Positions 14,580 through 44,818 of a DNA stretch of 64,000 nucleotides are shown one piece after another. The stretch spans positions 3,410,001-3,474,000 of the forward strand of contig NZ_CP043575.1 of the NCBI RefSeq assembly GCF_014076495.1, read 5' to 3'. Each line of letters opens with the position of its first letter. Positions within the stretch are counted from its first letter, which is position 1. Position numbers and translations under genes: made by a program. This DNA comes from Comamonas koreensis (GTDB taxonomy: Bacteria > Pseudomonadota > Gammaproteobacteria > Burkholderiales > Burkholderiaceae_C). The notes beneath the pieces were generated by a model. It was not told where the DNA came from, did not search any database, and saw only the letters and a program-made list of their open reading frames with translations.

Positions 14580-15851
14580 TTACGAGGCGAGCAAAGCCCG
14601 GCCTTCGGCGGATTCGATGGCGGGTGCGTAGGAGTCGAACACCGCGCAGCCGTGGTCGGTCATCACGCCGTCGATCTCGAAGCGGATCTTGGCGGTGCCA
14701 CCCATGTCGCCCGCAACGATCTCGATCACGTTGCCGTGGTCGGTCTTCTCCTCCGACCAGTCGTAGAAATAAGCGCTCTCGCCACCGCTGCGACCGTAGG
14801 CCCGGCCCAAAGCCTGCGCGCCGACGATGATCGAACGGTCAGTGGGGACTGCAGCAGTCTTCTCCACCGGCGTGAACTTGCCGCCGGTGCCCTGGTCCAC
14901 TTGCACCTTGGAACCCGTGTCAAAGCGGATGGCATAGCGCTTGAGCGTAGCGATCAGCATGCCACCCCACATGATGGTTTCCATGTTGTCGAACAGCGGA
15001 TGCTTTGCCCCAGGCACCTTGCGAGCCACGGCATCTGCCACAGCCTTTGCCCACTGCGAGGTAGTGCCGCGCTGCTTGAGGTACAGGAACTGGCGCTCGG
15101 ACACGAACCACACGTACAGAGGCGAGTTCCAGTACTTGTCGTCGTTCTCGTACTTGATGCCCTGCAGGGGAACAGTGGACTCACGGATCTGCGAGCCAAC
15201 GCGCTCGATGTCGGTGAAGGTCATCGCATCGGTGGTGGCCAGCTCTTCCACGCTGGTGGCGTCACCAGCATAGAACTGGCGGTTCTTGGTTGGAGCCTGG
15301 ACATCATTGACCATGATGCCGTTGAAGTCCTCGTCAGAGTCTTGCGGCACAACCCAGTCGGAATGGTTCTGGGTGCCACGGGCGCCGGCCAGCTGCACCA
15401 GCGTGCGCTGGTCTTCCAGGCGGCCCATGTAATCGGTCAAGCCGGTCATCACCACATCGCGCAAATTGTGCACGGTGCGCTTCTGGGACATCTTGCCGCC
15501 GTTGTCGGCACCGGCGCGCGTCTGGTTGATCCAGATGTCCATGCTGGAGCTCGACGTTTTCATCATCTTGCCCTGCACGCGGGTGTCACCCATCACGGGC
15601 TTGCCGCGCAGAGGGTTGAACAGGTCGATGCTGACACGGTCACCTGCAGTCTTGGACAGGTCACCGGCCTTAACCACTGGATAGCCAGGCGCGGTCTGGT
15701 CCTTAGCCTTGCTGCCAAATTCGGCGTTCTTGGGCATTGGGCCCGAGAGCATGTTCAGGAAGCCGGGAGCCTGCTGCACCTTGGTGAACAGACCTGCGGA
15801 GAAGACTTTCGCAGCCAGTGGGCTGCCGATTGGGATGGAATTTGCTGCCAT
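14580..15851 (-). CDS. Major capsid protein (N4 gp56 / DUF4043 family)
   Basis: A 423-residue protein typical of the N4-type HK97-fold capsid family. Markers are the early AKVFSAGLFTKVQQAPGFLNMLSGPMP, the conserved GDRVSIDLFNPLRGKPVMGDTRVQGK (~residues 70-95), WINQTRAG, and a late block GGESAYFYDWSEEKTDHGN followed by AGDMGGTAKIRFEIDGVMTDHGCAVFDSYA. It lies between the scaffold gene (16 bp upstream) and a decoration-like gene, the usual head-gene order. The length fits the family. The identification is good; capsid size cannot be told. Confidence 0.85.
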   Translation of the reverse strand: MAANSIPIGSPLAAKVFSAGLFTKVQQAPGFLNMLSGPMPKNAEFGSKAKDQTAPGYPVVKAGDLSKTAGDRVSIDLFNPLRGKPVMGDTRVQGKMMKTSSSSMDIWINQTRAGADNGGKMSQKRTVHNLRDVVMTGLTDYMGRLEDQRTLVQLAGARGTQNHSDWVVPQDSDEDFNGIMVNDVQAPTKNRQFYAGDATSVEELATTDAMTFTDIERVGSQIRESTVPLQGIKYENDDKYWNSPLYVWFVSERQFLYLKQRGTTSQWAKAVADAVARKVPGAKHPLFDNMETIMWGGMLIATLKRYAIRFDTGSKVQVDQGTGGKFTPVEKTAAVPTDRSIIVGAQALGRAYGRSGGESAYFYDWSEEKTDHGNVIEIVAGDMGGTAKIRFEIDGVMTDHGCAVFDSYAPAIESAEGRALLAS

Positions 15852-17179: not shown

Positions 17180-18109
17180 ATGCTGATCTACTGCGAAGGT
17201 GCCGCCCAAATCCGTCATCACACAACGGGCCTGATCTATGACATTCAAGCTGACGAACTGGATTGGAGCCAAGTAGGAGGCGACGAGGGGCCTATGGGTG
17301 CGTCAACTCACTATCAGGCCCAACTTGAGCATCCCGAATTAGGACTGTTGACGTGGGATATATGGGAATACCCCGTGGGTGTGGAAAACAGTACAGCGAG
17401 AAACGTAAATGGTCATGAGGTTATTCATGATTTACGGTATGGACTGGAGCATGTACCAGACATAGAAGACGCAGACGACTGGATAAATCCGTATATTCCA
17501 AATGATCCTTATGAGATTTTCAAGGAGTCAATCACAGAAGCCAATGTACTAGTGAATACGTCTGGCTCAGCCGAAGGAACGGGGCTCATCAACCGTATGG
17601 TTTTCTCTCACTACATTACAGCCATGGAGGCGTTTTTGTGTGATGCTCTGCTAAATGCGGTTTCAGATGACACCACCGCTAGAGGAAGGCTACTAAAGGA
17701 GCTTAAAGGGCTTCGGGAGCAAAAATTCACATTGAATGAGATCGCGGCAGATCCAGACATTGTGATTAGCAGCTTACAAAATCACCTACGCTCAATCGTC
17801 TACCATAATCTGGTAGTCGTAGGCGATTTATTCAAAATCGCTCTTGATATCGATATTTTCCAATTTATCGACGATAAGGATTTCTTATTTAAAGCGGTAT
17901 TATTACGCCACGATTGCGTTCGTCGCAATGGTAAGGACAAAGATGGAAATATATTAGATGTTTTCACAAAAGACTTTGTAATAGAAACCGGCCAAGCGAT
18001 CAGGTTCTTCATCGCTTCTCTTGCTTTGGCTATGGATCAAAGGGTTTTCCGGGGGATTACGGAGAAGCTCGAAAAACTGGAGGCGGAGCTCTCATTGTCC
18101 GGTTCGTAG
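17180..18109 (+). CDS. Accessory (moron) protein with degenerate HEPN-like motif
   Basis: A 309-residue protein on the strand opposite to the late genes around it, and much richer in A+T, so probably a late acquisition. The C-terminal half (~residues 135-305) is helical and ends in a HEPN-like pattern: LLRHDCVRRNGKDKDGN at ~241-257. HEPN RNases and related domains carry R-x4-6-H; here the pattern is R243-HDCV-R248, so the expected His is replaced by Arg. The N-terminal ~100 residues are beta-rich and unrecognised. HEPN proteins are common in defence and toxin systems; activity here is doubtful because of the substitution. Confidence 0.6.
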   Translation: MLIYCEGAAQIRHHTTGLIYDIQADELDWSQVGGDEGPMGASTHYQAQLEHPELGLLTWDIWEYPVGVENSTARNVNGHEVIHDLRYGLEHVPDIEDADDWINPYIPNDPYEIFKESITEANVLVNTSGSAEGTGLINRMVFSHYITAMEAFLCDALLNAVSDDTTARGRLLKELKGLREQKFTLNEIAADPDIVISSLQNHLRSIVYHNLVVVGDLFKIALDIDIFQFIDDKDFLFKAVLLRHDCVRRNGKDKDGNILDVFTKDFVIETGQAIRFFIASLALAMDQRVFRGITEKLEKLEAELSLSGS

Positions 18110-18144
18110 CCGGAGGTCCTATCCATTGAACGTCAGGCCCATAT

Positions 18145-18235
18145 TGGCGGAAACACAAGGAATCGAACCCTCACCCGCTCTTCACGGATGGCGACGGTTT
18201 TCAAGACCGTTTCCCGACCTTCGGGGCATGCTTCC
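18145..18235 (-). tRNA. tRNA-Ser (anticodon TGA)
   Basis: A 91-nt cloverleaf on the minus strand. The acceptor GGAAGCA pairs with TGTTTCC, followed by discriminator G and an encoded CCA. The D-arm is CCC...GGG. The anticodon stem ACGGT/ACCGT encloses the loop CTTGAAA, giving anticodon TGA. A long variable arm and a T-arm with TTCGATT follow. The length and large variable arm are those of class II tRNA-Ser. The T-stem has one mismatch at its base. It is the last gene of the phage RNA island. Confidence 0.85.
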
Positions 18236-18280: not shown

Positions 18281-18408
18281 CATCAGGAAACAAACCTAGT
18301 GACCTCCGTTTTGCCGCGCTTCACAAGCCGCTGGTCAGGCGGCGGGATCCGTGCAGTAGGCCGATACCACTCTGCGTGGCCGTTCCCGGCTAGGTTCGTT
18401 TCCTGATG
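18281..18408. repeat. 19-bp inverted repeat enclosing a structured GC-rich segment
   Basis: The arm at 18281-18299 and the arm at 18390-18408 are reverse complements with one mismatch (CATCAGGAAAC[A/G]AACCTAG). They enclose 90 bp of GC-rich sequence with further short stems. Next to the second arm is a hairpin GCCCC/GGGGC (18408-18423). Read on the minus strand it lies between the tmRNA coding piece and tRNA-Ser. It may be the 3' end of the tmRNA precursor or a separate structured RNA. Confidence 0.5.
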
Positions 18409-18478
18409 CCCCTCGCAAGGGGCTTCAAGGCCTGTGCTGTTCCTACGTTCTCAGGCTACGCGCCGTCCGATCTCTCGA

Positions 18479-18589
18479 TCAAGCTGCCACTGCGAAGCCA
18501 CCGTTGGCAGCCACGGCACCCTTGGAGGATGCGGAGGCCTTGGCGATGGCAGCAATAGCTGCTACAGACGAAGAAGCAAAAGCGTTTGC
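18479..18589 (-). other. tmRNA tag reading frame, 36 codons
   Basis: The frame starts at the GCA resume codon (18589-18587), set by the conserved AAGTAACT just upstream, and stays open to TGA at 18481-18479. It encodes a 36-residue peptide beginning A-N-A-F-A-S-S-S-V-A-A and ending G-G-F-A-V-A-A. Usual tags are about 8-17 residues and end in ALAA or a similar hydrophobic C-terminus; FAVAA is a known kind of ending. The internal SSSVAA and the final AVAA hint at an ancestral stop that was lost or an insertion. Confidence 0.65.
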
Positions 18590-18684
18590 AGTTACTTGGT
18601 TTGCTTGGTTTCGCCTTGCGGCCGGGCTCCGCTTGCCCGAGTCGTAAATCTCCGCGTCCTCGCGCTGTCTAAACCAGGTCAGCC

Positions 18685-18774
18685 CCACAGGATATGTCTA
18701 GGTTAGGTTCAAGAATCCCGCCGCGTCCGACCTGCAGATCAAACACACCTTTTGTGCCTAAACATATCTTGTGG
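18685..18774. repeat. 18-bp inverted repeat flanking the tmRNA intervening segment
   Basis: The arms 18685-18702 and 18757-18774 are reverse complements at 16 of 18 positions (CCACA[G/A]GATATGT[C/T]TAGG). They continue the acceptor stem formed by the two ends of the permuted tmRNA, so the precursor would fold into one long hairpin from which the 85-nt spacer is cut out. Confidence 0.7.
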
Positions 18775-18897
18775 AGCTGGGCGGAATCGAACCGCCGTCC
18801 AGCACGCACCTACTTCAACCTCTTGGCAGCATCACTGCTTGCCTCACGACCATCAACGCTAACTGCAGGTGACGAACTTACCCACTCGCCGCGTGTC

Positions 18898-18973
18898 TGG
18901 TTGCAATGGCTGGACTTGAACCAGCGACCTTCGGGGTATGAACCCGCTGAGCTACCAACTGCTCCACATTGCA
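18898..18973 (-). tRNA. tRNA with anticodon CAT (Met or Ile2)
   Basis: A 76-nt cloverleaf on the minus strand. The acceptor TGCAATG pairs with CATTGCA, followed by discriminator A and encoded CCA. The D-stem is GAGC/GCTC with loop AGTTGGTA, the anticodon loop TTCATAC (CAT) and the T-arm GCTGG-TTCAAGT-CCAGC. The first pair is T-A rather than the initiator mismatch, so it is an elongator tRNA-Met or a tRNA-Ile whose C34 is modified to lysidine. Sequence alone does not separate these. It abuts the tmRNA. Confidence 0.88.
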
Positions 18974-19063: not shown

Positions 19064-19093
19064 ACCATCAATCGAGCAAGACTCAATATTAAA

Positions 19094-19108
19094 TTGATCT
19101 TTAATCAC
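19094..19108. promoter_or_regulatory. Operator-like dyad (TTGATCTTTAATCAC)
   Basis: This is one of eight related 15-mers in the prophage (consensus TTGAACTTTAATCAA). It overlaps the end of the portal gene and stands upstream of the tRNA/tmRNA island in the minus direction, so it could control a promoter for the RNAs or be a chance match. Confidence 0.4.
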
Positions 19109-21218
19109 TTGGCAAGACACGCGGAGCGTAAATTGTTTCAGGCTGTGGCGTGGTGTCTACGACTGGCAGTTGCACTCCCATGCCTTGCGCCATGGCTTGC
19201 AGCTCCTGGACGGCCCGTGCGAGGTCAACCGCAAGCTTGCGGGCCTCCATCAGCGTCTTCTCCGAGTCGGCCTCCTTGGCATTGATCTCCGCTGCAATCT
19301 TCGCCATGTTGAGCGTAGCTGCCTCCTGTTGCATCGCCTGCTGAATTTGCTGAGCCTGCTGAGCAGCCTGCTGATCGGCCTGCATCTGCTCGGGCGTCTT
19401 GACGCCTCCCACCGAGCGGATGCGATCGGCGATCTCATATTTGCGCGGGCTGTCCGTCTGCTCAAAGACGATGTCGGCCACAGCGGCCTGCATCTGCGGC
19501 GGCAGCGACTTGACCATCTCGGTCATCTGCTGCATTTGCTGCATCTTGAAGCTCGGTGTAGCCGGCACGTCGTCGAGAACCAGCACCGGGCGCACGCGCG
19601 TAGTGTCGTTCTCAATGACGGTCTGCCCAGTCGCTGGATCCACTACCCGTCGGTTGAACACAATCGTCTTGGCCTTGGCGCCCTGCCCAATCTTGACCCG
19701 CGTCTCCTTGCCCAGCATGTCCTGCAGGCGCATCTCAAAAAGCATTTGCCCAGCAATGCGGCGCGCGATGCGGTAGTTGTCGTTCAGGTCAGCCAGGCCA
19801 TTGACGCCTTGCTCCACCAGCGAGTTGATCGCAAAGCCGCTAGTCGCGCTGGAGTTCTGGCCCATCAGCGCCTTGTGCACGCCCGAGGCCTCCGGGATGC
19901 TCTGCTTGGCCTCCTGCAGCGCCTGGAATTGCTGCGAGGAGATGTCCGCGCCGCTGTCCACCTGGAACTGCGAGTCAGGGGTTCGACCCTTTTTGAGAAT
20001 GATGTAGGCGTCCTGGCGAGACACCTCGGCGGCCGCAGCTTCATGGTCCTCCACCGCATCGGCGTCGGCGATCACCCGCTTGCTGTTCATGGCCCAGAGC
20101 ATCTTGCTCTTGCGGGCGTTGACTTCGCGCTGGGGCGAGAGCATCACGCGGATGATCCCGTACGGCGCACCCGACAGATCCTCGCGCTTGCCGAAGAAAG
20201 GCACATATGGGAACAGGCGATGGTTGTAGGGGCTCGGAGTGTCGTACAGCATGTGCGGGCCGACGTACCAAGCCAGGCGGACCTTCTGGAACACGGCCGG
20301 CTTGACCTGGGCGCCCTCCTCAACGATCAGGCGCTGGTGCTCCACGTTGTCGAAGTCGCACTCCACAACCGTGCCGGTGGGCAGCCGAAGCGTGTAGCCC
20401 TGCACCGCCTTGCGATACCACACCTCGGAGATCAGCACGCTGTTGTCTGCGCGGTTCACGTACATGTGCTCGCTCAGCCTGGTGTCACGGCTGATGTTGA
20501 AGTGCTGGATGAGGCCCGTGTTGCCGTTGTCCAGCAACGGATCGTAGCCCTGCCAGTTGGTACCGCACTGGCGCAGCAGCTCAGCGAACATGGGGAACAT
20601 GCCAATGGCGTCATCGAGCAGGATCCAGCGGCGGCGGATCAGGTAGCGCGCATCGGACAGGTCAGGCTCCTTGCTGCGCCAATCCCAGTAGATCTCGCTG
20701 CGGTGGACGTAGCGGGCCATGTAGGCGTTCTGGGCCAGTCCATCGCGCTCGCGCCCGATGTAGACCCACCCCAGCCCCGCCTTCACCTCGGCTGCATAGG
20801 CCTCGGAGGTGGCGCGATCCAGTCCGGACTCCGTCTCGTCACGCTTGACCAGCAGCGACAGGCCCTCGGCCATGTCATCGGTGCACACGTCATCGTCCTC
20901 GGGTCGCACCCGGAAGTCCGACCGGCTCTTGACCTCCATGCCCAGCACCGTGTCGACAGTGGGCTGGATCAGGTTGGTGATGACCTCGGGCTGACCTCGG
21001 TCCTGCAGCGTCTCCTTATCTTCCTGGGACAGCTGGTGGTTGTCGTAGAAGTCGCAGCAGATATTGGCCTCGGTGCGCCACCCGCTCGGCTGCAGGGGCA
21101 GCTCCATCATCCAGCCCTCAATGATGCTGCGGTCAAGGGGCTTGTCCGCCAGCTCGGGGGCGACATCGCTCACGTTGTCGGTCGGGTCGGTCCCGAATTC
21201 GGCGGTGGTAGTGTTCAT
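19101..21218 (-). CDS. P22-like portal protein
   Basis: A 705-residue protein close in size to P22 gp1 (725). Recognisable parts are the N-terminal GWRTEANICCDFYDNHQLSQEDKETLQDRGQPEVITNLIQPTVDTVLGMEVKSRSDFRVRPED, the central EIYWDWRSKEPDLSDARYLIRRRW, then YNHRLFPYVPFFGKREDLSGAPYGIIR...NARKSKMLWAMNSKRV, and a C-terminal Gln/Ala-rich coiled coil (~620-690), the barrel-like tail of this family. It forms the 12-subunit DNA channel at the capsid vertex. The ATG at 21218 (MNTTTAEF) is chosen over 21305, which overlaps the terminase; its ribosome site is weak, so the start is uncertain. Confidence 0.82.
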   Translation of the reverse strand: MNTTTAEFGTDPTDNVSDVAPELADKPLDRSIIEGWMMELPLQPSGWRTEANICCDFYDNHQLSQEDKETLQDRGQPEVITNLIQPTVDTVLGMEVKSRSDFRVRPEDDDVCTDDMAEGLSLLVKRDETESGLDRATSEAYAAEVKAGLGWVYIGRERDGLAQNAYMARYVHRSEIYWDWRSKEPDLSDARYLIRRRWILLDDAIGMFPMFAELLRQCGTNWQGYDPLLDNGNTGLIQHFNISRDTRLSEHMYVNRADNSVLISEVWYRKAVQGYTLRLPTGTVVECDFDNVEHQRLIVEEGAQVKPAVFQKVRLAWYVGPHMLYDTPSPYNHRLFPYVPFFGKREDLSGAPYGIIRVMLSPQREVNARKSKMLWAMNSKRVIADADAVEDHEAAAAEVSRQDAYIILKKGRTPDSQFQVDSGADISSQQFQALQEAKQSIPEASGVHKALMGQNSSATSGFAINSLVEQGVNGLADLNDNYRIARRIAGQMLFEMRLQDMLGKETRVKIGQGAKAKTIVFNRRVVDPATGQTVIENDTTRVRPVLVLDDVPATPSFKMQQMQQMTEMVKSLPPQMQAAVADIVFEQTDSPRKYEIADRIRSVGGVKTPEQMQADQQAAQQAQQIQQAMQQEAATLNMAKIAAEINAKEADSEKTLMEARKLAVDLARAVQELQAMAQGMGVQLPVVDTTPQPETIYAPRVLPSD

Positions 21219-21285
21219 GCGCAAGGCCTGGTCAAAAATAGTCGCAGTTGCGCAGATTCTCAGGACAGGGGCTAACTCGTACCAG

Positions 21286-22134
21286 TCAAACCCAACTCGA
21301 TCCACGACGCCGGCGCATGACCTGGCCCGTGCCCTTGCTGGGGATGGTGATGGCGTAGCGCAGCATCATCAGCGCGTAGCGTGTCGAGTCCAGCAAGTCG
21401 TCGTGCGCCTTCACGATCTTCCCGTCCTTGCGGTGGTACATGTTGTACTCGTTGAACCACTCGCTGAGCGTGGAGAAGACGCGAATGCGCAGCGGCTTCT
21501 CCCCCTTCAACAGGGTCTGCTGCCGGGCGTATTCCGCCGGATCGTTCGCGTTGAAGCCGTCCAGCATCATCATCAGCCCGGCCTCCACCGACGTTCGGTT
21601 CACCCGGGTCTGCCCGTCCAGCGTGTGCCCCTCTGGAAACTTCGCGTTCTCGTGGAGCATGTTCAGGCCATGGCCACGATACTGCTCCGACAACTGCGCG
21701 CCGCCGTCCTTGCCGTGCTGCAGGCCGTCGTGCGGCCAGGCAAAGGGTATCCAGTCGCCGCGCTGTAGCGCCTTGGGGGCGAGCTGGGCCGGGGTCTGCT
21801 TGCTCTCGCTGAGCGTGTCGTACAGGTAGACGATGTTCTCGTCGCGGTCCCAGGCCAGCCAGCTCATGGCAGTCGGGTGGTCCCAGCCGAAGTCGATCGC
21901 GCCAATGCGCGGCCACAGATCGGGGATGCTGAACGGCGCGACCTTGATGATCTCTTCGTCGGTGCCGAAGATCTGGCCGTCGCCCAGCGCCGGATAACCC
22001 CGGGAGCGGGCCTTGCGCAAGTGCGGAGGCGTGGATGCCAGCAGCTCGGCCTTGGTGCGCGCGCTCAGGTGGGGCACATCATCCCAGCCGGCCATGACCA
22101 GGTACTTGGATTCGGAGCCGGGCACTCTAGGCAT
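21286..22134 (-). CDS. Terminase large subunit, nuclease part (split gene)
   Basis: A 282-residue product holding the C-terminal half of a P22/Bcep22-type terminase large subunit. It opens with the conserved linker KYLVMAGWDDVPHLSARTKAELLASTPPHLRKARSRGYPALG. The RNase H-like nuclease follows with acidic residues in GAIDFGWDHPTAM, PHDGLQHGKDGG and KAHDDLLDSTRYALMM. It begins 8 bp before the stop of the ATPase half, in another frame, at an ATG preceded by AAGGA. The two parts together equal one normal terminase (~545 residues). It may be a true two-gene split, a programmed frameshift or a recent frameshift mutation. Confidence 0.72.
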   Translation of the reverse strand: MPRVPGSESKYLVMAGWDDVPHLSARTKAELLASTPPHLRKARSRGYPALGDGQIFGTDEEIIKVAPFSIPDLWPRIGAIDFGWDHPTAMSWLAWDRDENIVYLYDTLSESKQTPAQLAPKALQRGDWIPFAWPHDGLQHGKDGGAQLSEQYRGHGLNMLHENAKFPEGHTLDGQTRVNRTSVEAGLMMMLDGFNANDPAEYARQQTLLKGEKPLRIRVFSTLSEWFNEYNMYHRKDGKIVKAHDDLLDSTRYALMMLRYAITIPSKGTGQVMRRRRGSSWV

Positions 22135-22918
22135 CGTCGTCCTTGTAGATGTCCGGGATGCCATTGGGCAGGAAGGATCGCACCGTCTCGCTCATGCCCT
22201 CCAGTGGCGTGAACGTGATGTTGATGAGGCCATTGGTGGTGGCCGTCCGGATAAGGCACTCGCCGTAGATGTCGTACGGGGGCTCCTCATCTAGCCAGAT
22301 CACGTCCTGCTCGGTGCCCTCAAATGAGCCGCGCCCCTGCTGGAAGGACTTGATGCCCAGCTTTGACCAGCCGCCAGTGATGTGGCGGACCTGCACGGTA
22401 TCCATCAGGTCCTGCACGCCTTGTTTCCATGAGATTGACCCGATGTCATCGCCCGGCACCAGGCCGGTGCCCGCGACACCCTTGCGCGCGCCGTCGAACT
22501 TGATGTCGCCAAACAGCTTGTTCTGCACAATGTCCCGGCTGGTTTCGTTGGTCTTGCCGGCCGCCCAGGCCTTGATCGGCTTGTCGAACCTCCGACCCAC
22601 CCACCAATGCGGATAGCGGCCGGTCAGGTGCAGTGCCATCTCGTACCCGCCGGCGCCCTCGGTCTTCCCGATCCGGTTGGCCGCCAGAAAGCAGCGCTCA
22701 CGATACTGTGCCCCGGCCGCGAAGAACTCCAAGTGCTTGGGGTAGAGCTCGCGCCGTAGCGGGCCTTCGTCGGGGTAGTAGGTGAACAGCTTGCGCCGGG
22801 CCTCGCGCCGGGCTTTCTCCTGCAGCAGCTCCAGCAGCTGGGCCTTCTGCTCGCGCGTGAGCCCCGCCAGATCAGGCTTTGCCGGCGGTGTACGCAGCGA
22901 TTTGCTTGTCGAGCTCAT
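22127..22918 (-). CDS. Terminase large subunit, ATPase part (split gene)
   Basis: A 263-residue product with the packaging ATPase core: Walker A CFLAANRIGKTEGAGG (~residues 75-90), the adenine/C-motif region around AAGKTNETSRDIVQNKLFG, and Walker B DVIWLDEEPP (~205). It ends abruptly after NITFTPLEGMSETVRSFLPNGIPDIYKDDDA, exactly where full-length homologues continue into the linker now found in the next frame. It overlaps the small-subunit gene by 47 bp. It powers DNA translocation into the capsid together with the nuclease part. Confidence 0.78.
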   Translation of the reverse strand: MSSTSKSLRTPPAKPDLAGLTREQKAQLLELLQEKARREARRKLFTYYPDEGPLRRELYPKHLEFFAAGAQYRERCFLAANRIGKTEGAGGYEMALHLTGRYPHWWVGRRFDKPIKAWAAGKTNETSRDIVQNKLFGDIKFDGARKGVAGTGLVPGDDIGSISWKQGVQDLMDTVQVRHITGGWSKLGIKSFQQGRGSFEGTEQDVIWLDEEPPYDIYGECLIRTATTNGLINITFTPLEGMSETVRSFLPNGIPDIYKDDDA

Positions 22919-27500: not shown

Positions 27501-27703
27501 TGGCGCGCGCCCTCCTCCAATTCTCATCATGCCTGGCGCTCGCCGCTGTGTGTGTGGCCGCCTATGTGCAGGTCATGCGCCTGGCCGATGCGGGCGCCAG
27601 TGACCTCGTCGTGATCCCCTTGACCCTGGTGATCGCTGTCCTCTTTGTCGCCTGTGGCACGGGCGCTGTCTTCGCATGGGAGCCTGAACATGTCCACGGC
27701 TGA
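27500..27703 (+). CDS. Small two-span membrane protein
   Basis: A 67-residue protein with two hydrophobic segments (LLQFSSCLALAAVCVAAYVQVM and DLVVIPLTLVIAVLFVACGTGAVFAW). The ATG overlaps the stop of the gene before it (TAATG). It overlaps the next gene by 14 bp. Small membrane proteins in an early operon can act in superinfection exclusion, but nothing here identifies a specific role. Confidence 0.55.
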   Translation: MARALLQFSSCLALAAVCVAAYVQVMRLADAGASDLVVIPLTLVIAVLFVACGTGAVFAWEPEHVHG

Positions 27704-28736
27704 ACTCCAAACTTCATCATCCACCACCAATCAAACCGCCAAGCCCAAGGAGTTGACGGCTGAGCAAAAGGATCAGCTCAACCGGGTTCAAGAGGTATTC
27801 CGTGGATCGCCTCTCCCTCCCACTGATCCCTCCGCCATCACCCTGACACTGCAGGCGCGCGGCGAGCGCTTCGCCCAGCATGTGGATGTGGCCACTGAAA
27901 CCTTGGGGTTCCATACGCTCAACGATCACTTCGCCAAGGGATTCAAGAACCACGACACCGAGAGGTCGCTGGCGTACATCAGCGGAAGCATGGGACGCCT
28001 ACTGCACGGGCCAGGCAAGACGGCCACGGTTTTCATCGAGCCCGAGAAGCACCTCATGGAGTTCGCCACCGCCGGCAGCTGCTTTATCGAGATGCTCACC
28101 CAGCTGGCCGATGCTCTGGAGGCAGTCATCCTGAACGCAGACGGTGCAGTTCTTAGTGAGGCCGAGCTCAAGGCCCTTGGCGAGCAAATCAACGCCGGGG
28201 TGCGCAAGAAGATGCAGCAGCACCGGGCTGCGCACACCGTCGTGATGCCCGACGGCGAAGTGCGGCTCTACAACGGACTGTCCTTCACTTACGACGTGCT
28301 GGACGCCAAGGGCGACTGGGACCACACCGTTTATTTCGATGCCGCGCCGGCGACGGTCAGCCAGGGTCGGGCCAATGGCCTGAACATGGCCGCGGAGCTG
28401 ATGAAGTTCCACAAGGCCCATAAGCGTGGCTTCTACTGGTTTGGGCGCGTGCTGGAAGCTGCGTACGAGGCCAAGAAGAAAGATCCGCGCGTCAAGTACA
28501 GCAAACCCTGCGTAGAAAACGTTGTGGCTGGCTTCATGACCGGCATCGAAGCCTTTGTCCAAGTCGGTTGCAAACACACGAATGTCGAATGGATCAACGC
28601 GCGCATCGACGAAGCCGAGCAGAGCTATGCCCGGGATCTGGCTGAAAAGGCTGAGTTCGCCGAGCGCATGCGCAACGCCCGGGCGGCAGCCGCGGCCAAG
28701 CGATCAGCGGCCGCGCAGGGAGGGTCATCGAAATGA
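27690..28736 (+). CDS. Early phage protein of unknown function
   Basis: A 348-residue soluble protein starting MSTAELQTSSSTTNQTAKPKELTAEQKDQLNRVQEVFRGSPLPPTDP. It has a helical middle (residues ~60-170) and a basic, Ala-rich C-terminal helix (AEFAERMRNARAAAAAKRSAAAQGG). The central part mentions no known motif (GEVRLYNGLSFTYDVLDAKGDWDHTVYFDAAPATVSQGRANGLNMAAEL). It overlaps the genes on both sides, consistent with one operon. The ATG at 27690 is preferred to one 45 bp upstream. Confidence 0.55.
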   Translation: MSTAELQTSSSTTNQTAKPKELTAEQKDQLNRVQEVFRGSPLPPTDPSAITLTLQARGERFAQHVDVATETLGFHTLNDHFAKGFKNHDTERSLAYISGSMGRLLHGPGKTATVFIEPEKHLMEFATAGSCFIEMLTQLADALEAVILNADGAVLSEAELKALGEQINAGVRKKMQQHRAAHTVVMPDGEVRLYNGLSFTYDVLDAKGDWDHTVYFDAAPATVSQGRANGLNMAAELMKFHKAHKRGFYWFGRVLEAAYEAKKKDPRVKYSKPCVENVVAGFMTGIEAFVQVGCKHTNVEWINARIDEAEQSYARDLAEKAEFAERMRNARAAAAAKRSAAAQGGSSK

Positions 28737-29119
28737 GCGCCGTTGCAATCTCCCTCCCCTCCGACCACCTGGGCCTGCACCAGCAGGCGCCTTACGGCTC
28801 CCAGATCCTGCAGGCTGGCGGCGATCTGCGCTATCCGGAGATCGTCACCGGCGATGTGCTGCAGATCGACTTCGACGTCAAATCCATCAAGCACGACGGC
28901 CTGTACTTGATCGTCATCCGCAGCAAGGATGGCGCGCCGTGGCGCTGCGCACGCCGCTTCATGCGCGTGCCGAGCTTCTCCAGCGCGGGCATCGCCATCC
29001 ACGGCCAGGACGTTGCCGCCGAAGGCTGGGCGCCCGTGCCCGATGAACTCATGAGCCGCATTGAAGTCTTCGGCGCGATCCGCGAGGTCTTCAAGCCCGT
29101 CAGCAAGATGGGGAGGTAG
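28733..29119 (+). CDS. Small phage protein with S24/LexA-like beta pattern
   Basis: A 128-residue protein. The segment YPEIVTGDVLQIDFDVKSIKHDGLYLIVIRSKDGAPWRCARRFMRVP (~residues 34-80) follows the strand and Gly/Asp pattern of the S24/LexA C-terminal fold (GD-x-L-x-I-D ... DGLYLI). No Ser-Met nucleophile block or catalytic Lys is seen, so it would be a non-peptidase member, if related at all. Overlaps the gene before by ATGA. Function unknown. Confidence 0.5.
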   Translation: MSAVAISLPSDHLGLHQQAPYGSQILQAGGDLRYPEIVTGDVLQIDFDVKSIKHDGLYLIVIRSKDGAPWRCARRFMRVPSFSSAGIAIHGQDVAAEGWAPVPDELMSRIEVFGAIREVFKPVSKMGR

Positions 29120-29123
29120 CGCG

Positions 29124-29408
29124 ATGTCGGAACCACTCCCACCCAACACCCATGTCTGCGATTACATGCGCAGCTCCGTGGCTGTTTTGTACGACTACCT
29201 GCTGGGATCAGGTGACGAAGTCCCAACGCTTCGCAAGCTCTCCATCTCCAAGCTCGCAATCATGCTGCGCGACGAGATTGATGCAGCCAAGCGCGAGTCG
29301 CCCTCGTTCGCCGCCCAGCAGGACCAGAAATTCCAGGCCATCAAGGCCCAGCTGCTCAAGAAGCCGCGCAAAAACTCCCGCCTCTACAAGGAACTCAATC
29401 ATGGATAG
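29124..29408 (+). CDS. Early phage protein of unknown function
   Basis: A 94-residue protein (MSEPLPPNTHVCDYMRSSVAVLYDYLLGSGDEVPTLRKLSISKLAIMLRDEIDAAKRES...). The ATG at 29124 has GGGAGG upstream, which decides it over an in-frame ATG at 29061 lying inside the previous gene. It is mostly helical with a Lys-rich end. It overlaps the next gene by 8 bp. No family recognised. Confidence 0.5.
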   Translation: MSEPLPPNTHVCDYMRSSVAVLYDYLLGSGDEVPTLRKLSISKLAIMLRDEIDAAKRESPSFAAQQDQKFQAIKAQLLKKPRKNSRLYKELNHG

Positions 29409-30072
29409 GCCCACCACCCCTACCCCCAACATCATCGAGCTCGCGCTGAAGCATGGCGCATCCAGCTACCGCAATCGCGCGGACACCGCCCACCCGGCGT
29501 ACGGCTTCACCGAGCGGGGCCTGGTGCAGTTTGCGGAGGCGCTGCTTACAGGGTGCCATTGCCCTGATACCGCCGTGAAGCCGGCGAACCTGCAGGCCTT
29601 CGACGCAGCGGAATTCCTGGCAACCCCCAAGGATTGCGTTGACTACCTGCGCGAGTTCATCAATAAAGAGGACGAGCAACTGATCACCGGCGCGGTCGAC
29701 GATGTGGTGCGCGCCCTGCAGCGATTCGCCGGCCGGCTAGCAGCGGTGCAAGCAGAGCCAGCGAGCTACGAGTTCCAGGATCGTGATGGCAAATGGTGCG
29801 CTTTTGCCAATGAAGACCATCGCCGCAACACAGAGCGCGATGGGACATGGCCAATCCGCGCGCTCTATACAGCCCCCCATCCCGTTGACGGGCTGGAGCC
29901 TGTCCGCCAGGCCATCCGCGACTATCACCATGCACTCGACACGCACAAGCACGGCGGCGTGGCCGCGCACGCAGCAGTCGATGCCATCGAGACTGCGCTG
30001 GGCATGCCCTGGCACCAGGGCGAGGAAGCGGGCCGGCGGGCGGCTGCGGCTGAACAAGGCGGTGCAGCATGA
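29401..30072 (+). CDS. Early phage protein of unknown function
   Basis: A 223-residue protein (MDRPTTPTPNIIELALKHGASSYRNRADTAHPAYGFTERGLVQFAEALLTG...). Residues ~118-165 (ASYEFQDRDGKWCAFANEDHRRNTERDGTWPIRALYTAP) resemble a short beta module common in small phage early proteins (the PIRALYTAP ending is typical). A His-rich helix (RDYHHALDTHKHGGVAAHAAVDAIETAL) follows. It overlaps its neighbours by 8 and 4 bp. Function unknown. Confidence 0.55.
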   Translation: MDRPTTPTPNIIELALKHGASSYRNRADTAHPAYGFTERGLVQFAEALLTGCHCPDTAVKPANLQAFDAAEFLATPKDCVDYLREFINKEDEQLITGAVDDVVRALQRFAGRLAAVQAEPASYEFQDRDGKWCAFANEDHRRNTERDGTWPIRALYTAPHPVDGLEPVRQAIRDYHHALDTHKHGGVAAHAAVDAIETALGMPWHQGEEAGRRAAAAEQGGAA

Positions 30073-30458
30073 AGACCGATCCACGCAAGGGATGCGCGAA
30101 CGAGCGCGAGCTGTGGCTGTGGGCCGCTATCCATGACCTGCTCGCCCATCCGCTGATGGTGCTCACCTGGTATAGCCGGCCGGCGCTTTGGTTTCACGAC
30201 TTCACATCACACCGCGCATGGCCGCGCGCCGTGAGCGCCGCTGCTACCGTCACAGCGCACGCTACACGTTTCGGCAGTGTGCGCGTAGCCGCGCAGAGTC
30301 CAGGCGTTTGGCGCGTCTACCACGGGCAGGTCAATCACGCGATCACGCTGGCCGCCTTGTCAGGTGATGAGGCTTTGTACAGGGCGTTGCGGTGGTTCGA
30401 CTCCCTGGGCGCAGAGTTTGGCGGTCGTTTCTCGCCGCAGACATCGGAGGCACTGTGA
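30069..30458 (+). CDS. Early phage protein, unknown, Trp-rich N-terminus
   Basis: A 129-residue protein (MKTDPRKGCANERELWLWAAIHDLLAHPLMVLTWYSRPALWFHDFTSHRAWPR...). The LWLWAAIHDLLAHPLMVLTWY block is a pattern seen in small phage proteins of unknown role. The C-terminal half (VRVAAQSPGVWRVYHGQVNHAITLAALSGDEALYRALRWFDSLG) looks helical. It starts in an ATGA overlap and ends on the start of the prepilin-like gene. Confidence 0.5.
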   Translation: MKTDPRKGCANERELWLWAAIHDLLAHPLMVLTWYSRPALWFHDFTSHRAWPRAVSAAATVTAHATRFGSVRVAAQSPGVWRVYHGQVNHAITLAALSGDEALYRALRWFDSLGAEFGGRFSPQTSEAL

Positions 30459-30835
30459 TGCGTCAAAAAGGAATCACCCTTATCGAAACCTTGCTTGTGG
30501 TCGCCCTCACCGTCGTCGTGTTCCTGGTTGGCAGTTGCGTGATGGATCCCGAGCGAGTGGCTCAACGCGCCGCCGAGGAAGCGGCGGAGAAAAAAGCCGT
30601 GGAAGCGAGGCGCCAAGCCGAACTCAAGCCGCGAAAAATCAGCGAAGCCGATGGCTGCGAGGTCTGGGCGTTCAACCCCGGCCAGCGCTGGCAGTACTTC
30701 ACGCGCTGCGGCAGCAAGACCGAAACCAAGACCACATGGGAGGAATGCCGCACCGTGACCTCCGGCAAGACTTCGCGTACCGAATGCACGCCTCACAGCG
30801 CGACCGTGACCAACGAACCCAAGGATGCCCAATGA
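30458..30835 (+). CDS. Small membrane protein with prepilin-like N-terminus
   Basis: A 125-residue protein beginning MRQKGITLIETLLVVALTVVVFLVGSC. This matches the type IV prepilin/pseudopilin signal: a short basic leader ending in Gly, cleavage before Ile, Glu at +5 and a hydrophobic helix. VGSC at the helix end also resembles a lipobox. After a charged helix (AEEAAEKKAVEARRQAELK) comes a Cys-containing domain (DGCEVWAF...YFTRCGSKT...EECRTVT...RTECTP). It overlaps the next gene by 4 bp. Such a signal in a phage early operon is unusual; it may be coincidental. Confidence 0.55.
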   Translation: MRQKGITLIETLLVVALTVVVFLVGSCVMDPERVAQRAAEEAAEKKAVEARRQAELKPRKISEADGCEVWAFNPGQRWQYFTRCGSKTETKTTWEECRTVTSGKTSRTECTPHSATVTNEPKDAQ

Positions 30836-31632
30836 CAGCCGCCATGCCCCAAAACATAGACGCCTTGAGCCTGGCCGACTGGATTGACTCAGACTTCGAT
30901 CCAGACGAAATGCTCGAGCGCGGATACGACGCCATTGCGGCCGAGCTGCGCCGGCTGAGTAAGGTGGAAGCGGCCTTCAAGGAATGGATCGAAAAAACCG
31001 ATTGGGTCCAGCGCACAGCGAAACCCGCCGAGCTGGGCGTCCACCGGGCCGATGTGCTGGCTAGTCGCATCGCGGCGATGGATGCGGAAATCCGCGTCAC
31101 TAACGACATGAACCAGCAGCTGCGTGACCAGAACACCGCAGTCGATGCGGCGTGCGCGGCGCTGGAGAAAGCCGGTATCGAAGCGGCCAACCGCGCCGCG
31201 GCCGCTGAGCAGCAAGTCACCGCCCTCACCCAGCGCCTGGACATGGCCAATCGGCTGAACACCGATGCGTGCAATCTGTTGGCGCAGCAAGCTGCCAGCG
31301 AGCGCCTCGCGAAGGCATTCCCCCAGGCTGCCGAAATGTTTCATCCGCTCTATGTCCAAGGCTTTAAGGCCGGCTATCGCCGGGGTGGCGCGCGCGGGAA
31401 GCGCTCTGTTCTGCGCCAAGTCGGCAAGCTGGTCGATGAAGTGATTGCCGCTCCTCCTCCGCCTGAGCAGGAGCCGCGCACCAATGAGTGGCACCACAAC
31501 AGCAGAGTCGAATCCGCAGCCGGTATTCGTGATGCCTTAAGCCGAATGGGTGTGTACCTCACGATCACGACCATTCTTCAGCTTGTTGACATCACGCGCA
31601 AGGCACATGAAATAGGAGCCACCAATGATTGA
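30832..31632 (+). CDS. Early phage protein with coiled-coil middle
   Basis: A 266-residue protein (MTAAMPQNIDALSLADWIDSDFDPDEMLERGYDAIAAELRRLSKVEAAFKEWIEKTDW...). Residues ~75-160 form a long heptad-like helix (RIAAMDAEIRVTNDMNQQLRDQNTAVDAACAALEKAGIEAANRAAAAEQQVTALTQRLDM). A basic patch follows (YRRGGARGKRSVLRQ). The start at 30832 is the ATGA junction with the previous gene. No catalytic motif; function unknown. Confidence 0.55.
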   Translation: MTAAMPQNIDALSLADWIDSDFDPDEMLERGYDAIAAELRRLSKVEAAFKEWIEKTDWVQRTAKPAELGVHRADVLASRIAAMDAEIRVTNDMNQQLRDQNTAVDAACAALEKAGIEAANRAAAAEQQVTALTQRLDMANRLNTDACNLLAQQAASERLAKAFPQAAEMFHPLYVQGFKAGYRRGGARGKRSVLRQVGKLVDEVIAAPPPPEQEPRTNEWHHNSRVESAAGIRDALSRMGVYLTITTILQLVDITRKAHEIGATND

Positions 31633-31984
31633 ACACCCCAAAATTACCGACGCCCAGATTGACGAGATCTTCAACGCCATGCCAGGCGGGCCTGCAGGCT
31701 TCATGAAGTCCTGGGGCTACCGTCAGTTTGCCCAGCAGCTGCTCGCGCTGCGGGCCATGCCAACCTGGGAGCCAGCATTCGACATCATGGTCCCTGAGCA
31801 AGAGGAACTGGTGATGCAGTTCTGCATGGAAATCGCGGGCCCAAAAGGAAAGCCCGGCCGCCCGCCTGATCCGGTCCGTTTGCTGGAGATGGCCGAGGCG
31901 CTGTACCAAGTTGAGCGGCAAGCCGCTGTAAAGCTCCCCCAGTCGGGTGAACTTGTAAATGTAGTGAAGCCCTCAGCCTCGTGA
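31625..31984 (+). CDS. Early phage protein of unknown function
   Basis: A 119-residue protein (MIEHPKITDAQIDEIFNAMPGGPAGFMKSWGYRQFAQQLLALRAMP...). The opening ITDAQIDEIF...GFMKSWGYRQFAQQLL is a pattern common to small phage proteins of unknown function. It overlaps the genes on either side by 8 and 4 bp. It ends KLPQSGELVNVVKPSAS. Confidence 0.5.
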   Translation: MIEHPKITDAQIDEIFNAMPGGPAGFMKSWGYRQFAQQLLALRAMPTWEPAFDIMVPEQEELVMQFCMEIAGPKGKPGRPPDPVRLLEMAEALYQVERQAAVKLPQSGELVNVVKPSAS

Positions 31985-32181
31985 CCCAGTACTACACCAC
32001 CACCGAAGTGGCCGAGCGCGAGGGCCTGAGCCGCTTTGCTGTACTGCACATGTGCCGGCGCGGGACCATTACCCCAGCCAAGATGGTCGCCGGTCGCTGG
32101 TTGATCCAGGCCGGCTATCACTTCACTTACCGGCCGCCGGGGCGGCCGTCAAGCACCAGAAAGGAATGCGACGCAACATAG
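31981..32181 (+). CDS. MerR/excisionase-like small DNA-binding protein
   Basis: A 66-residue protein starting at a GTG that overlaps the previous stop (GTGA). MTQYYTTTEVAEREGLSRFAVLHMCRRGTITPAKMVAGRWLIQ is a MerR-type/excisionase-like winged helix (TTTEVAEREGLS is the recognition segment; GRWLI the wing). It could be an excisionase or an early regulator. A second, AlpA-like candidate lies next to the integrase at 42,995, so this one is more likely a regulator. Confidence 0.6.
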   Translation: MTQYYTTTEVAEREGLSRFAVLHMCRRGTITPAKMVAGRWLIQAGYHFTYRPPGRPSSTRKECDAT

Positions 32182-32208
32182 TTTATGAGATGATGCGCAC
32201 ACAATAAC

Positions 32209-33156
32209 GTGGAGCGCATTTTGATACATAGACGCAGGCCAGTACCTCAACATTTCGGTTTCTACCCATTACCAATAGAATTCGACGAAAAGCAATTTCG
32301 AATTTCGACCCTCCCAGGCCTTTCGAAAACCGTAGCTGAGTTAAAGCAAAAAGAGACATTCGCAGGCGACTGGTTCTATGCACCCGCAGCATGCGCGAAT
32401 ATTCACGGCGTCGGTTACAGGAACATGCCTTTTTCCACGAGGATCTTTGGCCTACCTCACACGCACACGATCAACATACAAGGGTCTCAGGATCCAGACG
32501 AGGTAGAGTTTGTAGTTTGGTGTCTTTCTTTCTTTGTGGGAATGCGCCTTACGACTACTCCAAATGGATTTCTCGATGGCACTCCACTAACGCCGGGCGA
32601 TCTTACAGACTTCCAATTGGGCGGTAACGAAAAACCCGCAATTGACCTCGCCTTAAATTTTTACGCCAAGCATGGAGAAGGATCCGTTGCAGCAAAAAGG
32701 TTGTGCGCAGTGATTCACGCGCTATTTTTGGCTCAATACAATCGAAATTTACCATTCGAGAAATTTCAATATCTTTATATGGCCATAGACGCATGCTTCA
32801 AAATCATGCAAGGCCAGACAAAACCAAAATCATCCGTGGGGCACGGTCAAAGAATTGAATGGATGTGCAATTTTTATGGGATGCCGATACCAGTGTGGGC
32901 AAAGTATGATGCGGCGACTAGAATTTCTGATATTTCTGATTTGCGCAACCCAGCTATTCACGAAGCATTATTTTTTGGTGAGCCACTCGGGTTCGCCGCT
33001 TCTGGCGGATATGAAACTTGGCCTAGCGAAATCAACCTAGCACTGGAAATGCGGGCGTTGATCTGCAGATTCGTAGTCGCTATCCTCGGACGAACCGACG
33101 TACCCTATGTGAAAAGCCCAATTGGCACCTCTCAGGTTTACGCGCTCGACTTGTAG
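32209..33156 (+). CDS. Accessory (moron) protein with HEPN R-x4-H motif
   Basis: A 315-residue protein, strikingly AT-rich against the phage genes around it. The first ~140 residues are mixed beta. The C-terminal half is helical and has SDLRNPAIHEALFFGEPLGF at ~244-262, where R246-NPAI-H251 is a good HEPN R-x4-H motif with a polar residue after the Arg. A long helix (ALEMRALICRFVVAILG) follows, as in HEPN domains of ApeA-like and other abortive-infection proteins. A terminator for the opposite strand follows. I infer a possible antiphage RNase. The start is GTG at 32209; a TTG a few codons later is possible. Confidence 0.6.
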   Translation: MERILIHRRRPVPQHFGFYPLPIEFDEKQFRISTLPGLSKTVAELKQKETFAGDWFYAPAACANIHGVGYRNMPFSTRIFGLPHTHTINIQGSQDPDEVEFVVWCLSFFVGMRLTTTPNGFLDGTPLTPGDLTDFQLGGNEKPAIDLALNFYAKHGEGSVAAKRLCAVIHALFLAQYNRNLPFEKFQYLYMAIDACFKIMQGQTKPKSSVGHGQRIEWMCNFYGMPIPVWAKYDAATRISDISDLRNPAIHEALFFGEPLGFAASGGYETWPSEINLALEMRALICRFVVAILGRTDVPYVKSPIGTSQVYALDL

Positions 33157-43614: not shown

Positions 43615-43637
43615 AGGGGCCCAGCAGGCCCCTTTTT
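43615..43637 (+). terminator. Terminator after the early operon
   Basis: AGGGGCC/GGCCCCT stem with a 5-base loop followed by TTTT, just past the membrane protein stop. It sits between this gene and the convergent integrase gene. Confidence 0.85.
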
Positions 43638-44818
43638 CATTGTGTCCAGCGATCAACCATATCCGCCCAATCCTGCAGCATCGCGGTGCGCTGCTCGCGA
43701 TACTCCGCTTTGTTGTAGACCGCGCGCACGCCCCGCTGCTCGTGCGCCAAACACTTCTCGATCCAGTCGGTGGCATACCCCGCCTCGTTGAGCAAAGTGG
43801 ACGCGGTGCGCCGCATGTCATGCGGTCCGCAATCGGGCATGTCAACACCATCGCCGCGCGCCTTCTCGACGGCGCTTGAGATGACACGGTTCAACGTGGC
43901 CGCGCTCATCGGCTTATCGAACTCATATCGGTTTGGGAGGACATAGGAGGAGCTGCCGCCAAAGGTTTTCAGCGCAATCATGAGGTCGAAGGCTTGGCGC
44001 GAAAGATAGACCACATGCGGCCGGCCCATCTTCATGCGCTCCTTGGGAATGGTCCAGGTGCGCGCCTCAAAATCAACTTCATCCCAAGTAGCGAGTGTCA
44101 ATTCGCTCTTGCGCACCATTGTCAGCAGCAGCAGCTTTATCGCCACCTTGAACTGAATGCCGGTCCCAACGCGCTCAAGATAGGTGTACAGCGTCTTGAT
44201 GTCAGTGGGCTGGAGCATGCGGTCGCGGGGGACAAACGTCGCAATGCTGCTCGGCTTCACTCGGTCCGCTGGGTTTGCTTCGACGTCCAGCCCTCGCTCA
44301 ACCGCGTAGCGAAAGACCATCATCACGATGTCTCGGGCTTGGATGGCCACCGCAGGCGCGCCGCGCGCAACGATCTCGTCTGTTCTTCTGCGCAGCGCGT
44401 GGTGGTCAATCTCGCGCATCAGCTTGTTGTGGAAGTAAGGCTTGAGGTCGCGCTCGTAGACTGATCGCTTCATCGCTCTGGTGGAGTCGGCCATGCGATG
44501 CTTCTCCATCCATTCCTCAGCCCAGCTGGCAAATGTGCGCTCGCCTTCGACGGCCGCGACCGCCGCTCGCGCCGGTGAAACCCCGGCGTTGCGCAGGCGC
44601 TTAGCCTCACTCAGCTTCTGCCGCGCCTCGGCGAGGGTGATCCCGCCAATGCCGTACTGACCGAAATTGATTGTTTCCTGCCGGCCGTTGACCCGGTAGT
44701 TGTACGCAAACGTGCGCGCACCCTTTGGGGACACCCGGACATACAGTCCATCACGGTCCGCCATTTTGAACACCTTGCCCGTGGGCTTGATGTTTTTGAG
44801 TATGGTATCTGTGAGCAT
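43637..44818 (-). CDS. P4-type tyrosine integrase
   Basis: A 393-residue site-specific recombinase. The N-terminal ~85 residues are a DUF4102 arm-type DNA-binding domain (MADRDGLYVRVSPKGARTFAYNYRVNGRQETINFGQYG). A SAM-like core-binding domain follows (~95-190). The catalytic part has Arg in MVRKSELTLATWDEV, HDMRRTASTLLNEAG (His and Arg) and the final CLAHEQRGVRAVYNKAEYREQR, where Tyr in AVYNKAEY is the nucleophile. It faces away from guaA, with its start ~360 bp from the guaA stop. P4-type integrases often use the guaA 3' end or tRNA genes as attB. Confidence 0.9.
   Translation of the reverse strand: MLTDTILKNIKPTGKVFKMADRDGLYVRVSPKGARTFAYNYRVNGRQETINFGQYGIGGITLAEARQKLSEAKRLRNAGVSPARAAVAAVEGERTFASWAEEWMEKHRMADSTRAMKRSVYERDLKPYFHNKLMREIDHHALRRRTDEIVARGAPAVAIQARDIVMMVFRYAVERGLDVEANPADRVKPSSIATFVPRDRMLQPTDIKTLYTYLERVGTGIQFKVAIKLLLLTMVRKSELTLATWDEVDFEARTWTIPKERMKMGRPHVVYLSRQAFDLMIALKTFGGSSSYVLPNRYEFDKPMSAATLNRVISSAVEKARGDGVDMPDCGPHDMRRTASTLLNEAGYATDWIEKCLAHEQRGVRAVYNKAEYREQRTAMLQDWADMVDRWTQ

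Follow-up and report, generated by a model that had tools for sequence, protein, structure and literature searches.

A prophage of Comamonas koreensis carries a gene best read as a circularly permuted, two-piece tmRNA with a long predicted tag

The window, meaning the whole 64-kb stretch of DNA that was analysed (C1:3410001-3474000 of a 5.2-Mb single-contig genome of Comamonas koreensis), contains a prophage whose left end lies outside it. The prophage genes recognised include those for the portal, terminase, major head protein, internal virion protein, primase, repressor, Cas4-domain exonuclease, helicase, and integrase. A search for attachment sites from the integrase/guaA side to the left end found no convincing repeat. 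The tmRNA gene is located in the late region, behind the portal gene, within a tRNA-bearing RNA island. The surroundings of the gene are listed below; L035-L038 are viral contigs with a related portal gene.

19101..21305, minus strand: portal protein gene, upstream neighbour (phrog_156, E 1.6e-156)
19086..19115, minus strand: sigma-70-like putative promoter preceding the island, with a -10 region conserved across the five members checked (window, L035-L038)
18898..18973, minus strand: tRNA-Met (CAU), by ARAGORN and Rfam
18145..18235, minus strand: tRNA-Ser (UGA), by ARAGORN and Rfam
18091..18140, minus strand: truncated tRNA-Arg remnant; tRNA-Arg is intact in L035-L038
15868..17052, minus strand: next downstream gene on the strand, phrog_479 (no known function), at the putative place of the scaffold gene
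14580-15851, minus strand: major head protein gene, after the 15868..17052 gene
43637..44818, minus strand: integrase (tyrosine recombinase), adjoining guaA (45178-46794)

Two promoter-like sites were found, against a shuffle average of 0.4. An earlier note on this DNA, made from the sequence alone, had placed the gene in the late region of a prophage next to the phage's own tRNAs. This placement is borne out, since tRNA-Met and tRNA-Ser adjoin the gene and late genes lie around it; the third tRNA of the island, tRNA-Arg, is truncated in the window. The truncation is due to the 3' end of a 309-aa gene (17180-18109, plus strand), which overlaps tRNA-Arg. This gene matches only function-less PHROG families and is opposed to the late-gene direction.

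On the minus strand, the T-arm (18796-18780), the sequence CAGCUCC (18779-18773), and the discriminator A (18772) come first, followed by an 85-nt spacer (18771-18687), and then by GGGGCUG (18686-18680) with a tmRNA D-region. The acceptor piece is therefore read upstream of the coding piece, with the spacer between them. The two pieces are connected by two helices, both complete: P1 forms 7/7 pairs, including a G3-U70 pair, and P2 forms 7/7 pairs between CAGCGCG (18667-18661) and CGTGCTG (18806-18800). The G3-U70 pair is an identity element for alanine. The parts of the gene are as follows.

18772..18890, minus strand: acceptor piece (leader, 5' helices, P2 3' strand, T-arm, P1 3' strand, discriminator A), with bounds taken from conservation among the relatives
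18868-18890, minus strand: leader block, 23 nt
18846..18851, minus strand: GGUCGU, proposed to form a helix with ACGACU (18640-18645), from sequence reading
18800..18806, minus strand: P2 3' strand CGUGCUG, from the beta-model match and register alignment
18780..18796, minus strand: T-arm with a 5-bp stem and the loop UUCGAUU, from the Rfam match and register alignment
18773..18779, minus strand: P1 3' strand CAGCUCC, pairing 7/7 with 18680-18686
18687..18771, minus strand: spacer, 85 nt, a predicted hairpin stacked on P1, putatively removed by RNase P and 3' processing
18590..18686, minus strand: 5' part of the coding piece (P1 5' strand GGGGCUG, D-region, P2 5' strand at 18661-18667, PK1, resume context GUAACU)
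18635-18639/18623-18627 and 18629-18632/18618-18621, minus strand: PK1, from sequence reading
18479..18589, minus strand: tag reading frame, 36 codons and a stop, ANAFASSSVAAIAAIAKASASSKGAVAANGGFAVAA
18410..18478, minus strand: 3' part of the coding piece, with a PK2-like segment (GCCUGAGAAC...GAACAG...CAGGC) and a hairpin (GCCCC/GGGGC); the 3' bound is approximate

The 5' bound of the acceptor piece (18890) marks the limit of conservation among the relatives, and is not a mapped mature 5' end. The strands of the proposed GGUCGU/ACGACU helix are both invariant in the six members of the group, which makes a covariation test impossible. The 3' part of the coding piece is conserved in L035, L036, and L038, and diverged in L037; a similar motif is present in L013. 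The permuted order and the 85-nt spacer described in the earlier note are thus confirmed by the sequence reading together with the model score given below, and the 7-bp acceptor stem, T-arm, P2, and resume-codon context that it had reported are all present.

Infernal searches with the Rfam models showed that RF04321 (tmRNA_permuted) matches the window at 18545-18831 on the minus strand, with 81.1 bits (gathering cut-off 47 bits) and an E-value of 5.8e-14 over the 64-kb window. RF01850 (beta_tmRNA) gave a partial match at 18659-18806, covering model positions 76-169 of 331, whose 59.8 bits are under the gathering cut-off of 84 bits. The earlier note had named an Infernal search as a check, and had counted the lack of a hit to any tmRNA model against its reading; one model scores above its cut-off, and a second matches in part. 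The ARAGORN check named alongside it went against the note, as the tmRNA gene is not called in the window. Among the portal relatives, ARAGORN made a permuted call in L036 and L037, missed L038, and made a spurious one-piece call in L035. RF01849 (alpha_tmRNA) had no match at E <= 0.001 across the own genome, and an alpha-type identity was ruled out on this ground.

Homologues of the gene were found in viral contigs. The portal relatives in IMG/VR (L035-L038) all carry the tmRNA gene, with RF04321 scores of 78.1 to 82.9 bits. The sixth member of the group is L139 (79.5 bits), which has terminase genes downstream in its contig. The independent set consists of the window, L035, L036, L037, L038, and L139; L094 and L097 repeat the L037 gene. 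Five viral contigs, which are these five relatives, have an exact copy of the 23-nt leader block; with up to two mismatches, the block occurs in only one of 399 sampled order-level genomes, the own genome. A wider pattern search for the permuted order found 90 viral contigs (55, 12, and 23 in three spacer ranges), and ARAGORN also made a permuted call in 82 of them. L139 is among the contigs found in this way.

The distribution among bacteria and named phages is narrow in the collections searched. In a survey of the genus by DNA similarity, the gene was present in 2/53 genomes, namely the own genome and G316, whose tmRNA is the same as that of Comamonas odontotermitis S00124, a prophage copy with an encoded CCA end. 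Three further genomes of the genus gave short matches; ARAGORN identified a one-piece tmRNA at two of these and nothing at the third (L098). The closest portal among named phages belongs to Achromobacter phage CF418P1 (40.9% identical), and neither ARAGORN nor Rfam found an RNA island or tmRNA behind the portal in its 13.8-kb stretch (L133). The same tools found no portal-side tmRNA at 26 distant portal loci (L107-L132, portal <=35% identical, flanks <=1.5 kb). Searches by DNA similarity found no copy of the gene in phages, where the best 40 of 55 records match around tRNA-Met only, or in plasmids, where three records share a 36-bp match in the T-arm region. Another phage group, represented by the IMG/VR contigs L049 and L076, has a two-piece tmRNA of beta type (RF01850, 110 bits) and a 29-residue ARAGORN tag, AKASTGEVTVSGKNIKFRTLAAKGQSLAV. 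A genome of the same family (L012) has a permuted tmRNA with the tag ANQDVYHVEQMPLAA.

The sequence of the spacer differs among the members of the group. Comparison of the window with L035 gave identical columns of 114/118 in the acceptor piece, 96/97 in the 5' part of the coding piece, and 90/90 in the tail, versus 47/108 in the spacer. Among the 15 member pairs, only the spacers of L036 and L037 were more similar than shuffles; each of the remaining 14 was matched in score by 41 to 259 of 300 shuffles. The six spacers are five unrelated sequence types. The spacer together with P1 nevertheless folds more stably than 300/300 shuffled spacers in 6/6 members. The earlier note had described an inverted repeat that bounds the spacer and extends the acceptor stem. 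This is upheld by 14 pairs between the two terminal 16-base stretches of the spacer in the window, a number reached by 0/300 shuffles. The relatives form 12 (L035), 13 (L036), 13 (L037), 9 (L038), and 12 (L139) such pairs, which were equalled by 0, 1, 2, 61, and 9 of 300 shuffles, respectively; by this count, the hairpin of L038 is not beyond shuffles. Unrelated spacers with a kept fold onto P1 argue that the folding of the spacer matters and its sequence does not. The relatives may thus be regarded as a natural experiment, in which the spacer is exchangeable wholesale while still folding onto the acceptor stem.

The host has its own tmRNA system. An intact one-piece tmRNA (193.3 bits, tag ANDERFALAA) is located at C1:3921098-3921475, and the single SmpB gene at C1:3461748-3462176 (window 51748-52176). 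The host also has two PF01743 proteins (poly(A) polymerase/CCA-adding head domain) and one SspB. The host tmRNA (RF00023) shares with the prophage gene the acceptor strands (GGGGCUG/CAGCUCC) and the resume context UAACUGCAAACG, but the two differ in gene order, number of pieces, and the sequence and length of the tag. A stray tmRNA 3' fragment was also observed in the host genome (G000) at C1:3865775-3865818, some 55 kb away from the intact tmRNA; an island with ssrA as its attachment site would leave such a fragment.

The resume context GUAA(C/A)U GCA AAC and an open frame are present in 6/6 members, and the window reads GUAACU GCA AAC. The tag, which the earlier note did not report, is 36 codons long in the window, L035, and L038, 32 in L036, 29 in L037, and 26 in L139; the tag given by ARAGORN agrees for L036 and L037, and a later start was chosen in L139. 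All six tags begin with ANA(F/I), without the usual AND start, and end in VAA, MAA, or AFA. The tag of the window is Ala-rich (69% Ala + Ser + Gly), with a net charge of +2 and the C-terminus FAVAA. The tags of mycobacteriophage and mollicute tmRNAs are also about 25-27 residues long, and the Caulobacter tag ends in FAVAA. A literature search for the Caulobacter tag peptide with this end gave no match. The present tags are called unusually long on the basis of the viral contigs examined and of the commonest tag length, 10 residues, in the available text of PMC11915505; a literature search on tag length had no result. Long tags were also given by ARAGORN for L047, L147, and L159, and these look misassigned: L047 holds an ordinary ANDEKFALAA frame, L147 has a 15-codon frame starting GCAAACGAT, and L159 shares the ARAGORN tag of L147.

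Evidence of coding selection on the tag is mixed. The three 36-codon tags differ by five changes, four of which are synonymous, and the neutral share is 0.29. When differences were counted by codon position, a third-position excess was found for L037-L139 (6/5/13) and window-L037 (9/7/15), and a slight one for L036-L037 (11/9/13); it was absent for window-L139 (7/6/6), window-L036 (7/7/7), and L036-L139 (10/7/11). Protein-guided codons gave synonymous to non-synonymous ratios of 9:8 for L037-L139, 3:9 for window-L139, 4:9 for window-L036, and 7:12 for window-L037. Gap lengths in the nucleotide alignments of the tag are divisible by three, the exception being L036-L037 (5, 12, and 2). These comparisons speak for coding selection in window-L035, window-L038, window-L037, and L037-L139, and it is unseen in window-L139, window-L036, and L036-L139.

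Taken together, these features suggest that the prophage gene encodes a functional type of two-piece tmRNA, which would be processed and charged, and would tag the products of stalled ribosomes beside the host system; we regard this as quite probable. We infer the processing, charging, and tagging, and the fate of the tagged proteins, from sequence. The transcript would probably arise from the promoter-like site before the island and/or by late read-through. In the folded transcript, the spacer hairpin would stack on the acceptor stem, and RNase P and 3' processing would excise the spacer to give the acceptor and coding pieces, joined by P1, P2, and further helices. The available text of PMC3985003 names RNase P and tRNase Z as the probable route for processing of permuted tmRNAs. 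The RNA would enter stalled ribosomes with the host AlaRS, EF-Tu, and SmpB; alanine and the 36-residue Ala/Ser-rich tag, unlike the host ANDERFALAA, would be appended, followed by normal termination. The acidic AND stretch found in the host tag is missing here, and the phage tag is therefore probably not tethered by SspB in the usual manner. The C-terminus FAVAA makes degradation of the tagged proteins likely. In the available part of PMC8138137, RseA 1-108, which ends in GVAA, is among the substrates of ClpX, and SspB is given as its adaptor; the FAVAA end may therefore still be a degron. It is also conceivable, if rather doubtful, that the phage runs a trans-translation branch of its own, in which the long Ala-rich tag would avoid host SspB/ClpXP or send products elsewhere (Lon, slower decay, or protection). 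A lysogen or infected cell would then have two tmRNA systems with different labels, one of them under viral control.

A permuted order might also be mimicked by fragments of a host tmRNA, if the 3' end left at an attachment site stood before the 5' part of the host gene. Such arrangements do exist. In a survey of the family, 19/299 genomes, including the own genome, scored above the RF04321 cut-off, and ARAGORN classified the 18 others as two permuted genes (L012, L013) and 16 one-piece genes. L014 scored 81.7 bits, yet it is a one-piece tmRNA with a stray 3' fragment in front, and arrangements of this type are a class of false positives for permuted-tmRNA searches. The RF04321 score is thus insufficient by itself, and the stray 3' fragment in the host genome is also in favour of such an origin. 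Because the model can be fooled in this way, features absent from the artefact were tested. P2 forms 7/7 pairs in the same register in 59/59 permuted loci (the window and 58 others, excluding L058, L064, and L079, which are duplicates of L036-L038), with 18 distinct P2 pairs. The search pattern had constrained P1 and the T-arm in part but not P2; L012 and L013 are exceptions, since they came from the Rfam model that includes P2. All 126/126 P2 cells are paired; when the pairings were re-dealt 1000 times, the mean was 96 and the maximum 115. Among 35 further loci, 30 have 7/7 P2 pairs, four have 6/7, and one has 5/7. A scan of the window with the T-arm motif GGTTCRAYTCC found no second tmRNA 3' end. 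Moreover, the host retains an intact tmRNA gene at another site, five further phage contigs carry the prophage gene with different spacers, and the leader was found in no sampled order-level genome but the own one. An origin from host fragments is therefore extremely improbable, and it was rejected on sequence (intact host gene, P2 register, and phage relatives). The prophage-borne, circularly permuted two-piece tmRNA gene proposed in the earlier note is the best reading, supported by the score, the in-register structure, the relatives in phage contigs, and a separate host one-piece tmRNA.

Whether this copy works as its relatives may do is a separate matter. The window has no encoded CCA and a truncated tRNA-Arg, so this copy may be weakened, or reliant on CCA addition. 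On this reading, it would be a recently decayed member of a phage tmRNA family that is otherwise functional, and its acceptor piece, having no encoded CCA, would not become chargeable. CCA is encoded in 5/5 relatives, CC follows the discriminator in 88/94 rows of permuted loci (with the L035 locus counted twice), and the adjoining tRNA-Arg has been truncated by the opposite-strand gene. On the other hand, genes without an encoded CCA can be completed by a CCA-adding enzyme, and the host has the two PF01743 proteins; five rows of the 35 further loci likewise lack CC. Elsewhere, the two pieces show the same degree of conservation as those of the relatives, and the spacer of the window still folds onto P1. 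Decay of the window copy is therefore considered unlikely, though it deserves weight. Another possibility is that the RNA mainly binds SmpB or stalled ribosomes and dampens host trans-translation instead of tagging. An RNA of the phage DS6A type, consisting of a tRNA-like domain only, inhibits tmRNA according to the available text of PMC11915505 and PMC4131195, and the mixed coding signal of the tag leaves room for such a role. However, the open frame and resume context are kept in 6/6 members and PK1 is kept in the window, all of which would be needless for a competitor, and this role seems improbable. The roles suggested in the earlier note of replacing a degraded host tmRNA or tagging chosen proteins are conjectural.

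The known tmRNAs of mycobacteriophages are one-piece, unlike the present one. The earlier note had called a phage with its own trans-translation RNA rare, which is right only in part, as phage two-piece tmRNAs have already been published (PMC9004378). In the available text of that paper, tmRNA genes were found in 402/18,146 phage genomes (133 unique, 53 of these two-piece by ARAGORN), and 17 permuted tmRNAs among 47 Melnitz-group contigs. PMC11915505, as far as its text is available, gives 79 unique bacteriophage tmRNA sequences and 11,946 permuted sequences overall. Further phages resembling the present one in carrying tmRNA genes include mycobacteriophages Bxz1, Wildcat, and others, Bacillus phage G, and Bradyrhizobium elkanii phages (available parts of PMC4131195 and PMC12656738). 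For Comamonas kerstersii, the accessible text of PMC13068251 reports one tmRNA per genome as well as prophages, not linked to each other.

The nearest known systems share some of these features. The tmRNAs of Melnitz and related marine phages are also phage-encoded, circularly permuted, and two-piece, and that of Melnitz was not found in its host, according to the available text of PMC9004378. The tmRNA of Melnitz, a marine myophage with no integrase found, resembles alphaproteobacterial ones and has a link to a glutamine riboswitch, whereas the present one is beta-like, with 26-36-residue tags, in a Comamonas prophage. The betaproteobacterial two-piece tmRNA (RF01850) is similar in gene order, P1, T-arm, and P2, as reflected in the partial match; besides the score below the cut-off, the present group differs in its extra conserved leader, long tag, and UUUAGA for UUUCGA in 5/6 members. 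No description of this phage tmRNA group was found among the matches listed in the literature on phage, permuted, and two-piece tmRNA and on Comamonas prophages, which comprised mostly non-subscription papers in partial text. Phage two-piece tmRNAs are thus already known; what is new is a phage-borne, beta-like two-piece tmRNA with a predicted long tag beside a host one-piece tmRNA. A lysogen should hold two tmRNAs that differ in build and tag, one bacterial and one viral. Because the tags differ, tag-specific proteomics can separate viral from host tagging, and the benefit to a phage of carrying a tmRNA becomes directly testable in such a lysogen.

Several other features of the prophage were observed. 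A 3291-residue open frame is located at its left end, just beyond the window (L104 10037-19912, minus strand). A plus-strand gene cluster (27645-33156) has few or weak family matches, and comparison of the unknown prophage genes with PADLOC, NCBIfam, and Pfam gave no or weak matches. The large terminase is encoded by two overlapping frames (21286-22164 and 22127-22918, minus strand) in the window and L035, and by one 513-aa frame in L037 and L038; the shared split may reflect a programmed shift or a mutation in the lineage. Between the tmRNA gene and tRNA-Ser there is a 120-nt segment (18285-18404, minus strand) with a 14-bp closing stem. Its folding is better than that of shuffles (z -2.7, 2/200 as good), and the sequence is similar in L035, L036, and L038 and different in L037. 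This segment is possibly another structured RNA.
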